Positions 9,408 to 14,490 of a stretch of DNA of 64,000 nucleotides are shown one piece after another (position 1 is the stretch's first letter; each line of letters begins with the position of its first letter). The notes beneath the pieces were generated by a model that saw only the letters and a list, made by a program, of their open reading frames with translations, did not search any database and was not told where the DNA came from. Both the position numbers and the translations under genes were made by a program. Origin of the DNA: Phycisphaerae bacterium (lineage in GTDB: Bacteria; Planctomycetota; Phycisphaerae; Phycisphaerales; SM1A02); the NCBI GenBank assembly GCA_016873275.1, contig VGXO01000004.1, positions 1 through 64,000 of the forward strand, in the 5' to 3' direction.

Positions 9408-9601
9408 GCAGGGGAACTCCTCCCCACGGCGGAGCCGCGGGGTTGGTGGACTGCGAGCGAAGCGAACAGGACGGAGGGGACCAACTCCTACGGGTTGCGT
9501 GCGCGTGCGCTGCGCGAGGTAAGCAACCCGTACATCGGACCTCCCCTCCGTCTCGCTGGCTTCGCCAGCGAGCCACCTCCCCGACGTCGCTTCGCTCCGT
9601 C
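9408..9601. repeat. Modular palindromic repeat block upstream of galK
   Basis: A chain of palindromic modules: CTCCTCCCCACGGCGGAGCC, then GAGCGAAGCGAACAGGACGG, then the inverted border GGGGACCAACTCC followed by CGGGTTGCG, then GCTGGCTTCGCCAGC. The same modules occur at 13898-14490, mostly in the opposite orientation, and in shorter form at 744-919 and 1060-1128. Confidence 0.85.
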
Positions 9602-9947
9602 GAGGAGGAGTTCCGGAACACGCCTCCCCTACGTCGCGGCGCTCGGTCGAGGAGGAGTTCCGGAACACGCCTCCCCGACGTCGCGGCGCTCGGTCGAGGA
9701 GGAGTTCCGGAACACGCCTCCCCGACGTCGCGGCGCTCGGTCGAGGAGGAGTTCCGGAACACGCCTCCCCGACGTCGCGGCGCTCGGTCGAGGAGGAGTT
9801 CCGGAACACGCCTCCCCGACGTCGCGGCGCTCGGTCGAGGAGGAGTTCCGGAACACGCCTCCCCGACGTCGCGGCGCTCGGTCGAGGAGGAGTTCCGGAA
9901 CACGCCTCCCCGACGTCGCGGCGCTCGGTCGAGGAGGAGTTCCGGAG
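9602..9947. repeat. 47-bp tandem array, seven full units plus a partial unit
   Basis: Units start at 9602, 9649, 9696, 9743, 9790, 9837 and 9884, with a partial unit from 9931. They are essentially identical; the first has one T-for-G change. Each holds GAGGAGGAGTTCCGGAACAC, including the palindrome GTTCCGGAAC, then CGCCTCCCCGACGTCGCGGC. There are no variable spacers, so it is not CRISPR. The near identity of units points to recent expansion. Confidence 0.95.
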
Positions 9948-10102: not shown

Positions 10103-12139
10103 TTAAGCCCCCGCGGTGGTCCGGCCGGCGAGCTCCGCCGCGAAGGACTTCGCGGCCGCGGCCGCCTGCACGCGGAGCTCGGGGACGGCGGTCGTCTCCC
10201 AGAGGTCGCCGCGGCGAAGGGCGCCGATCAGGCGCACGCGGGTCGAGATGGTGCCGTCCCGACCGATGAGGCGACCGTCGTCGTCGACGCGCAGACCGAG
10301 CCCGAGCGGATCGACGCTCGCGAGACCAGCGCGGAGGAGCGAGCCGAGCAGCGGATCCACCGTCTCCTCGACGCTCATCGAGGGACCGGCGCAGTTGATC
10401 GCCCGGGCGACCTCGATGGTGCGGATCGCCCCGCGAGCCTCATCACCGCCTCGCTCGATGCGGAGACCGATCCGCAGCGACTCCGCGGCTGGCGCCGCGA
10501 TCGAGGCGACGCTCGCGGCGAGAAGCTCGATCGTGCCCGCACGCAGTTCCTCCTCGAGCCTCGCCAGCAGGTTTGGCGGCACGCGGTGGCGGTGAATCTC
10601 CCAGAAGGGTCGGAGCCGCCGGATGAAGAAGCGGCGCTGCGCCGGAGACCACTGGCGCCACGCCCGCGCCGCGTGCGGTCGTACCGCGTCGATCGCGGGC
10701 TGCCACTCGGGAGGATGATCGTGATCGCCGCCATGACCGCTCGCGCGACCCGCGCCGTGCCCGTGCGCCGTGGTGATCGACCGCACGAGCGCCCGGATCG
10801 CCCGGAACGCCTCGCGCGGTCCCTTCGCGAGGAGATCGCCGTCGAGCGCGGGCGGCGGACCATGCGCCGCCGCGTGCGGGAGCGGGAAGCGCCCGTTCCG
10901 CGAGGCGATGACGATGCGGGCGCGGTGCCCGAGCCGGCGCAGGGCGAGCACCATGTCGATCGCGGTGAGTCCGCTGCCGACGAGGAGGACCTCGCGGTCC
11001 TTCGGCACGCCCGCGAGCACCTCCGGCTCCCAGGGATCCTCGAGGAGGAGACGCCGCGGGATCGGCTCGCTCGCGCGGTCCTCGGCGCCGCGCCATGGCG
11101 CGCGGGCCTGCGGAAGCCCGAGGGCAAGCACTGCCCCCCGCGCCTCGACGACGCGACCGGAGGCGAGCAGGAGCTCGAGTCCGGCGCCCCTCGGCTCGAG
11201 GTGGACGACGGCGTCGGCGACGAAGGAGGGCGGGGGCGAGCCTCCCTGCGACGCCCTCGTCACCGCCTCCTGCACGGTCTCGAGGAGGTATCGCGCGTAG
11301 AGCGCCCGCGGCGTGAAGTCGCCGGTGCCGTGCCGCCCCGGCGAGCGCCGCTCGAGCCACTCGTGATAGCCGAGGGGTCGGTCGGGAGTCGCGCCCATGC
11401 GTCCGGCGGGAACGTTCAGGAGGTGCTCCTCGTCGCACGCGCCGTAGGCGACGCCGGGACCAGGTCGCGGGCGGCGCTCGAAGACCGACGCCCGAAGCGA
11501 GGGCGCCTCGACGAGCAGGTTCGCGACGGTCATGAGTCCCGAGAAGCCGCCGCCGATGACGGCGAGGTCGCACTCCGCCTCGCGCAGCGGACCGAAGCGA
11601 AGGGGATTGCGCCGGCGATCGCCATCGCCGTCGCGCTCGGCGGCAGGCACCGTCGCCTTGCGGGCGAGCGCGCGGAGGCGACCGCGGGCGTGGTGCCGGA
11701 TCCGCGCGACGAGCTCGACCGGGTCGGGAAACTTCACGAGGTGGTCGCTTGCGCCACGCTCGAACGCCTCCGCCTTCGTCGAGGCGTCCTCCGCGCTCGT
11801 GAGCATCACGACCGGGACCTCGGCGAGCGCCGGCTCGGCGCGGTAGCGCTCGAGGAGCTCGCAGCCGCTCATCTGCGGCATCACGAGGTCCTGCAGGATC
11901 ACCGTCGGCGCGAAGGCGAGCGCGGTCGAGACCGCCTCCTCGGGTCTCTCGACCACGCGGAGCTCGATCGCCGCGCCGCCGACCGTGGCGATCGCGCGGC
12001 GGACGACCTCGCCGACGATCGCCTGATCATCGACGAGGAGGACGCGGATGGGTTCAGTCGATGGCGGGACGGTCACGTGGGGTCGAGGGAAGGGGAGCTC
12101 GCGAGGGCGCGGGTGGGGATGGTCCGTCATCCTCGGCAT
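10103..12139 (-). CDS. Response-regulator receiver domain fused to FAD/NAD(P)-binding oxidoreductase
   Basis: A 678-residue protein. Residues 30-155 form a complete receiver domain: acidic pair D37/D38, phospho-acceptor D84 in LQDLVMPQMSG, T114 and K136. The QDLVMP, TKAEAF and DPVELVARIR stretches resemble the WspR-type receiver that normally precedes a GGDEF domain. After a charged linker (156-188), residues 189-670 form an FAD-binding flavoprotein with GGGFSG at 196-201, HLLNVPAG at 239-246 and a second dinucleotide fold around VLLVGSGLTA (about 385). This matches the NAD_binding_9 group of flavoproteins. No internal ATG precedes the flavin fold, so it is one protein. A phosphorylation-controlled redox enzyme is the natural inference; substrate unknown. 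No kinase is adjacent. Confidence 0.85.
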   Translation of the reverse strand: MPRMTDHPHPRPRELPFPRPHVTVPPSTEPIRVLLVDDQAIVGEVVRRAIATVGGAAIELRVVERPEEAVSTALAFAPTVILQDLVMPQMSGCELLERYRAEPALAEVPVVMLTSAEDASTKAEAFERGASDHLVKFPDPVELVARIRHHARGRLRALARKATVPAAERDGDGDRRRNPLRFGPLREAECDLAVIGGGFSGLMTVANLLVEAPSLRASVFERRPRPGPGVAYGACDEEHLLNVPAGRMGATPDRPLGYHEWLERRSPGRHGTGDFTPRALYARYLLETVQEAVTRASQGGSPPPSFVADAVVHLEPRGAGLELLLASGRVVEARGAVLALGLPQARAPWRGAEDRASEPIPRRLLLEDPWEPEVLAGVPKDREVLLVGSGLTAIDMVLALRRLGHRARIVIASRNGRFPLPHAAAHGPPPALDGDLLAKGPREAFRAIRALVRSITTAHGHGAGRASGHGGDHDHPPEWQPAIDAVRPHAARAWRQWSPAQRRFFIRRLRPFWEIHRHRVPPNLLARLEEELRAGTIELLAASVASIAAPAAESLRIGLRIERGGDEARGAIRTIEVARAINCAGPSMSVEETVDPLLGSLLRAGLASVDPLGLGLRVDDDGRLIGRDGTISTRVRLIGALRRGDLWETTAVPELRVQAAAAAKSFAAELAGRTTAGA

Positions 12140-13897: not shown

Positions 13898-14490
13898 CCG
13901 TGGGGAGGAGTTCCGGATCGCTCCACGTCGAGATCGCGCGTTCCGGAACTCTTGAACTCCTCCTCGAACGATCGCCGCGAGGTCGGGGAGGCGTGTTCCG
14001 GAACTCCTCCCTGACGGAGCGAAGCGAGGTCGGGGAGGTGGCTCGCTGGCGAAGCCAGCGAGACGGAGGGGAGGTCCGATGAACGGGTTGCTCGCCTCGC
14101 GAAGCGCTCTCGCCCGCAACCCGTTGGAGTTGGTCCCCTCCGTCGCCTCGCTGCGCGAGGCGACACCTCCCCACGGCGGAGCCGTGGGGAGGAGTTCCCG
14201 AGCGCATCACGTCGGGATCGCGCGTTTCGACACTCCGGAACTCCTCCTCGACCGAGCGCCGCGAGGTCGGGGCGAGGCGTGCTCCGGAACTCCTCCCTGA
14301 CGGAGCGAAGCGACGTCGGGGAGGTGGCTCGCTGGCGAAGCCAGCGAGACGGAGGGGAGGTCCGATCAACGGGCGGCTTGGAGCGCTCCCGCATCGCAGC
14401 GCCCGCAACCCGTCGGAGTTGGTCCCCTCCGTCCTGCTCGCTGCGCTCGCAGTCCACCAACCCCACGGCGGAGCCGTGGGGAGGAATCTC
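13898..14490. repeat. Large modular palindromic repeat block
   Basis: About 600 bp with no gene, built from two imperfect copies of a composite element (about 13898-14190 and 14190-14490). Modules include GTGGGGAGGAGTTCC, CGTCGAGATCGCGCG, GACGGAGCGAAGCGA, GCTGGCGAAGCCAGC, AACCCGTTGGAGTTGGTCCC and CCCCACGGCGGAGCCGTGGG. Individual modules form near-perfect hairpins. The same modules, mostly inverted, surround the 47-bp array at 9408-10090. There is no transposase and no coding-like frame. The block lies between two genes that converge on it. Confidence 0.85.

Follow-up and report, generated by a model that had tools for sequence, protein, structure and literature searches.

The output of Wsp systems is either WspR or, in Burkholderia, WspH, in which a receiver (REC) is joined to a histidine kinase; outputs are, i.e., swappable, as described in the passages of PMC8552884 used here. 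Fusions of receivers to metabolic enzymes, among them a thioredoxin reductase from metagenomic samples, are known from both bacteria and archaea, and according to the parts of PMC5847659 considered, the archaeal fusions are narrowly spread, being restricted to a family or genus. In the L-aspartate N-hydroxylase FzmM, W51 touches the flavin edge-to-face, N62 sits above C4a of the flavin and Arg13 binds aspartate (passages of PMC10404684).

Here, we describe a gene in which a receiver and a flavoprotein are fused. It is encoded on the minus strand at 10103..12139 of the window, the stretch of 64,000 nucleotides from a Phycisphaerae bacterium that was analysed. As stated in a preceding reading of the sequence alone (the sequence-only reading), the frame is uninterrupted; it encodes 678 amino acids and has full-length homologues in four further genomes. 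A coding-potential script also chose the minus strand and placed the start at Met4 (12130). All features below are on this strand. The N-terminal part is assigned to the WspR-class receivers (residues ~30-152; 11684..12052), based on Response_reg (PF00072, residues 33-148, E 1.6e-17), the top matches in the PDB and a tree. D84 (11888..11890), the predicted phosphoacceptor, as well as D37, D38, T114 and K136 are found where the sequence-only reading had placed them, do not vary among the five fused proteins and complete the residue set of a response regulator (acidic pair, phosphoacceptor Asp, Thr, Lys). The C-terminal part is an FAD/NAD(P)-binding, class-B monooxygenase-like domain (residues 190-671; 10127..11572), assigned by NAD_binding_9 (PF13454, residues 193-341, E 4.7e-30; the flavoprotein domain extends beyond), a profile match to 8cp2 and a low-confidence fold match. 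Residues 153-189 (11573..11683) form the interdomain linker, which in the window protein is ~37 residues long, charged and Gly/Asp-rich. An ALAR and an RNP motif are present in the linkers of all five fusions, the latter as RNPL in four and as RNPF in G116. The earlier statement that there is no start codon between the parts was incorrect: codon 164, within the linker, is GTG with AAGG upstream, and the g60 fusions described below have other internal GTG codons, so that free enzyme could also be made.

The fusion is a genuine, conserved single protein and no assembly artefact, since four other genomes encode it in full length and dN/dS is low among the g60 copies. For the pair G123 and G124, dN/dS was 0.095/0.577 for the receiver, 0.044/0.346 for the linker and 0.086/0.643 for the flavoprotein; for the window genome (G000) against G123, dN and dS differ less and approach saturation (0.243/0.421, 0.458/1.141 and 0.316/0.859, respectively). 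The window genome is a draft of 136 contigs, which would favour a chimera, a frameshift or a pseudogene, but internal stops are absent as well, and we consider such an explanation exceedingly improbable. A listing of architectures with both domains, as proposed in the sequence-only reading, gave a narrow distribution. Within the family, 181 genomes were searched, and 36 of them gave a match with E 1e-45 or better. Five of these match over residues 28/31-671 or more, namely the window's own genome and four genomes of another genus, g60 (G116, G123, G124, G128), whose fusions are 59-62% identical to the window protein; the other 31 match the enzyme half only. The searches in the order and in the phylum were done on samples, with 2-3 candidate places scored per genome, and gave the full-length fusion in 5 of 400 genomes, all of one family, and in 1 of 392, the window genome itself. 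None of 715 matching plasmid records covers 80% of the query. In a broad collection of genome contigs, searched with exact 8-residue patterns, 35 of 35 loci matched via the receiver only; this is weak evidence of absence, because the patterns returned none of the g60 fusions.

The receiver is, judged by its sequence matches and phylogeny, a member of the WspR class, in line with what had been proposed for it. Its top PDB sequence matches are WspR entries (3bre, E 7.7e-33; 3i5a, E 1.6e-31), followed by far weaker ones (3t6k, E 1.8e-14; PleD, E 2.8e-14). GGDEF was absent among the Pfam matches of the fused protein down to E 0.1. In a REC tree of 41 rows, the five fused receivers form one clade (support 98/97) that joins the receivers of eight REC-SpoIIE-type proteins of g60 (99/92); Pfam verified SpoIIE for the protein of the window genome and for one from g60, the other REC-SpoIIE-type proteins being assigned by similarity. 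WspE-like sequence is found upstream in six of the eight g60 loci. The two other WspR-class receivers of the window genome fall elsewhere in the tree. The tree took 6 of the 35 loci of the genome-contig collection, excluded matches weaker than E 1e-20, shorter than 116 residues or identical to others, and omitted the long-branch receivers L060, L068, L070, L071 and L073 where present. An earlier tree of 60 rows, calculated with a quick method, also unites the fused clade (SH-aLRT 97). Pairwise identity fails to separate fused from REC-SpoIIE-type receivers, the window receiver sharing 76 of 121 residues with the REC-SpoIIE-type receiver of G123 and 75 of 120 with the fused receiver of the same genome; the single origin is thus based on the trees and the linker.

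Given that the fused receiver clusters with output receivers of the Wsp type, its phosphodonor would most likely be WspE. The window genome has a Wsp-like operon on contig C72 with a WspE-type kinase (Hpt, HATPase_c, CheW, receiver) and a REC-SpoIIE protein, and a further WspR-class receiver is part of a separate REC-GAF-HD protein; the fused gene is located outside the wsp operon. This operon, which ends in the REC-SpoIIE phosphatase, and the REC-GAF-HD protein were seen at L114:7290-8495 and L115:8983-10674. Receivers of this type had been said to usually gate cyclic-di-GMP synthesis; the class assignment held, but the outputs of these two other scanned proteins of the window genome are a SpoIIE phosphatase and GAF-HD, and GGDEF had no match in them at E 1e-5. 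Inspection of the flanks of the loci, from which the presence of WspE was read, revealed WspE-like and REC-SpoIIE-type genes in G000, G124 and G116, a piece of WspE together with a REC-SpoIIE-type gene in G128, and a REC-SpoIIE-type gene near a contig end in G123, where WspE was not seen. REC-SpoIIE-type genes also occur in four of five unfused g60 genomes, and the presence of Wsp therefore does not track the fusion.

That the second half is a flavoprotein of the FAD/NAD(P) type had been claimed before and agrees with PF13454, the profile match and the weak fold model, its nearest relatives being the class-B flavin monooxygenases. One chain harbors two dinucleotide-binding motifs, GGGFSG (residues 196-201, the position given before; 11537..11554), predicted to bind FAD, and GSGLTAID (residues 388-395; 10955..10978), for which NAD(P) binding is predicted. 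In alignment A2, G11, G12, G13, F14 and G16 of the FAD motif and G203, G205, L206, T207 and D210 of the second motif are invariant in all 18 homologues. An alignment that mixed receivers and two viral-contig relatives misaligned the enzyme half and was set aside. These relatives of the flavoprotein half, 32-33% identical, are encoded by two contigs of a viral collection (L173, L174); a second scan of viral contigs gave just one contig, which was already among the matches of the first.

When the profile of the 18 homologues was compared with the PDB, FzmM (8cp2) came first with E 8.4e-17, the next match having 2e-7; the strong portion of the match spans profile positions 24-225 of 480. In the HMMER alignment on which this comparison is based, W51 of FzmM corresponds to Y232 and N62 to N242 of the window protein. 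The latter residue is part of HLLNVPAG, which is indeed located at residues 239-246 (11402..11425), as had been noted. All 18 homologues, 15 of them without a receiver, have Tyr and Asn, respectively, at these two positions. At the position of Arg13, the residue compared out of the arginine cluster of FzmM, all 18 have Ser, Ala, Gly or Cys, which argues against an L-aspartate N-hydroxylase; judged on this position, the substrate is probably not aspartate. The structural models are of low confidence, with a pLDDT of 55 for the enzyme half modeled from three sequences and of 40 for a single-sequence model of the whole protein. With the weak enzyme model, VIA-align ranked 8cp5 first (Z 17.9, rmsd 3.2 over 208 residues; 8cp2 Z 17.7), but the flavin-containing monooxygenases 4c5o (Z 17.1) and 4usq (Z 17.0) tie with FzmM within 1, and enzymes of the thioredoxin-reductase type follow at Z 16-17. 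Foldseek, at a TM of ~0.3, placed an ornithine N-hydroxylase, SsDesB, which we take to be an N-hydroxylase, and a putrescine N-hydroxylase on ranks 1-5. From the profile match to 8cp2, the kept Tyr and Asn and the weak fold matches, the best reading is that the enzyme half is a class-B-like flavin oxygenase.

In g60 and g26, the gene for this enzyme is part of a row of porin-like, purL-/purQ-like, Gfo/Idh, enzyme, AP_endonuc_2 and queF genes; Gfo/Idh, AP_endonuc_2 and QueF were confirmed by Pfam in one g60 locus, and the porin-like, purL-like and purQ-like genes are presumably what their names, given from sequence, suggest. The slot that is held by the enzyme alone in unfused g60/g26 genomes, such as the g60 genomes G117, G121, G114 and G122 (the last on a short contig), is filled by the fused gene in the four g60 genomes with the fusion. 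The enzyme half of the fusion is closest to this unfused flavoprotein of the conserved g60 slot: in a FLAV tree of 34 rows, the fused clade, with a support of 93/87 that is below the bootstrap mark of 95, lies inside a set with g60 proteins supported by 98/99. In the window, the direct neighbors of the fused gene are a galactokinase-family gene and a Gfo/Idh gene, and in a g60 locus they are Gfo/Idh and AP_endonuc_2; conserved kinases nearby, for which the sequence-only reading had suggested to look, are thus not among the directly adjoining genes, which are not histidine kinases at either locus. On the 3' side of the fused gene the sequence-only reading had seen a repeat array, and this was recovered as a 47-bp tandem array at 9576-9946 with 7.9 copies. 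Beyond the Gfo/Idh gene, three degenerate matches to a 24-base piece of the array unit (3 mismatches each) are present on the minus strand at 13968-14324. The repeats hence bracket the fused gene and its neighbor.

The two congeners of the window genome (G001, G002) gave receiver matches only, at E 1e-20. We infer that the receiver arose by duplication of a Wsp output gene and was placed once, in g60, in front of a flavoprotein that already existed, and that the fusion was later transferred from g60 to the window genome. Alternatively, the fusion may have been lost in the congeners rather than transferred into the window genome. In G002 (L182:1568-8359), an amine-oxidase-type flavoprotein directly precedes the Gfo/Idh orthologue, and a galactokinase-like gene, 53% identical to that of the window, lies further up, with the amine-oxidase-type flavoprotein and two other genes between it and Gfo/Idh; this set takes the place that the fused gene has in the window genome. 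In G001, a galactokinase-like gene was not found within the 13 kb read around the Gfo/Idh orthologue.

Altogether, we give about even chances to the reading that the protein is a response regulator with a metabolic-enzyme output, in which a Wsp-derived receiver, joined once and transferred, gates a class-B-like oxygenase. A WspE-type CheA hybrid kinase would phosphorylate D84, whereupon the alpha4-beta5-alpha5 face would rearrange, with an altered dimer state or linker-enzyme docking as the result. Flavin reduction by NAD(P)H, or the access of substrate, would thereby go up or down, and the enzyme would oxygenate a small, probably polar metabolite. A more far-reaching version, in which a flavin N- or S-oxygenase is under direct control of the Wsp kinase through aspartyl phosphorylation and a single sensory pathway thus acts, via one receiver class, on a phosphatase, on an HD-type enzyme that possibly hydrolyses c-di-GMP and on a metabolic oxygenation, is possible but doubtful.

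WspR clusters upon phosphorylation, and the receiver could serve as a targeting or dimerisation module, taking the enzyme to the Wsp array or into contact with other receivers without gating catalysis. Its grouping with Wsp-type output receivers would fit, and a linker as long, charged and Gly/Asp-rich as that of the window protein would permit loose tethering; however, the linker is more conserved than a free tether would need to be, its dN/dS being low among the g60 copies, and we regard this explanation as somewhat unlikely. Flavoproteins can sense redox state. The signal could thus run in the reverse direction, with the flavoprotein as a redox sensor steering receiver phosphorylation, or the protein could be a phosphate sink for WspE, in keeping with at least three WspR-class receivers in the window genome that could compete for one kinase. 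Against this stands that the monooxygenase active-site positions are kept throughout the homologues, also in the 15 without receiver, suggesting that the enzyme predates the fusion; a sensor or sink is very unlikely.

A lead to the substrate may come from sulfur metabolism. A cysteine dioxygenase-family sequence is fused or adjacent to relatives of the enzyme in 7 of 40 genomes, a count based on 35 genomes with long flanks and 5 with ~1.5 kb, with some of the later family loci (among L044-L098) outside it. Two are fusions with opposite orders (L102:6850-8910, L169:5530-7518), the dioxygenase being C-terminal in G028 (confirmed by Pfam) and N-terminal in G204 (detected by phmmer); in five genomes (G109, G507, G054, G021, G050) the gene is adjacent. 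Four of the seven cases were confirmed by Pfam. Fusions in both orders are a strong indication, from gene architecture, of a functional link. In G029 (L100:4576-8554), the flavoprotein gene overlaps a gene with a PAPS-reductase domain, and a TPR-sulfotransferase adjoins. The association with cysteine dioxygenases and the overlap with the PAPS-reductase-domain gene would be in favor of a sulfur-metabolism oxygenase, acting on e.g. a sulfinate or thiol-derived compound, a step that the fusion brings under Wsp control. PF05995 was found in 3 of 18 genomes searched (G028, G029, G109), but had no match at E 1e-3 in any of the 12 g1 and g60 genomes, the five fused ones included (3 of the 12 are less than 90% complete), and the direct g60/g26 neighbors are not sulfur genes. 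With no PF05995 match in the fused genomes, a sulfur function cannot safely be carried over to the fusion, and we consider it unlikely there.

If the receiver gates the enzyme, as in the preferred reading of a response regulator with an oxygenase output, two-component signaling would reach a metabolic oxidation directly, with neither transcription nor a second messenger in between. The system lends itself unusually well to study: orthologues lacking the receiver occupy the same operon slot and can serve as natural controls, and the likely receiver donor (Wsp-type REC-SpoIIE) as well as a candidate kinase (WspE) can be named. The sequence-only reading had taken the output as one not known as described. 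For a receiver fused to PF13454, no description was recognised in the literature, judged on titles, abstract openings and passages of PMC1183210, PMC8552884 and PMC5847659; as a general statement it was too strong in view of the receiver-enzyme fusions in the parts of PMC5847659 considered. Receiver-metabolic enzyme fusions are already known as a class, and what the present protein adds is another enzyme class on a Wsp-type receiver.

Compared with the fusions described in those parts of PMC5847659, the window protein follows the same principle and has a similarly narrow spread, but its enzyme is of a different family, and the portion of section 14 considered does not name a monooxygenase-like output. 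With FzmM (8cp2/8cp5), its best PDB profile match, the enzyme half has in common that the positions of the flavin-contacting aromatic residue and of the active-site Asn align; in contrast, Arg13 is not kept in this family and a receiver is added in the fusion. It is also of the same broad flavoprotein type as the FAD-NAD(P)-binding protein NF007381/PRK09897, presumably YdhS, but a YdhS-type equivalog was ruled out, the enzyme half scoring 15 bits against a curated cut-off of 783 in a weak match that spans enzyme residues 7-82. The REC-SpoIIE phosphatases of contig C72 and g60 differ in output, a SpoIIE-type phosphatase, those of g60 having the closest receivers outside the fusion. WspR from Pseudomonas (REC-GGDEF; 3bre, 3i5a) shares the receiver class and gives the best PDB matches; unlike WspR and WspH, the fused protein has no matched GGDEF or kinase domain, is encoded outside the wsp operon and has a flavoenzyme as output. 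Swapping of Wsp outputs may thus reach beyond the WspR/WspH pair that the passages of PMC8552884 describe for Proteobacteria.
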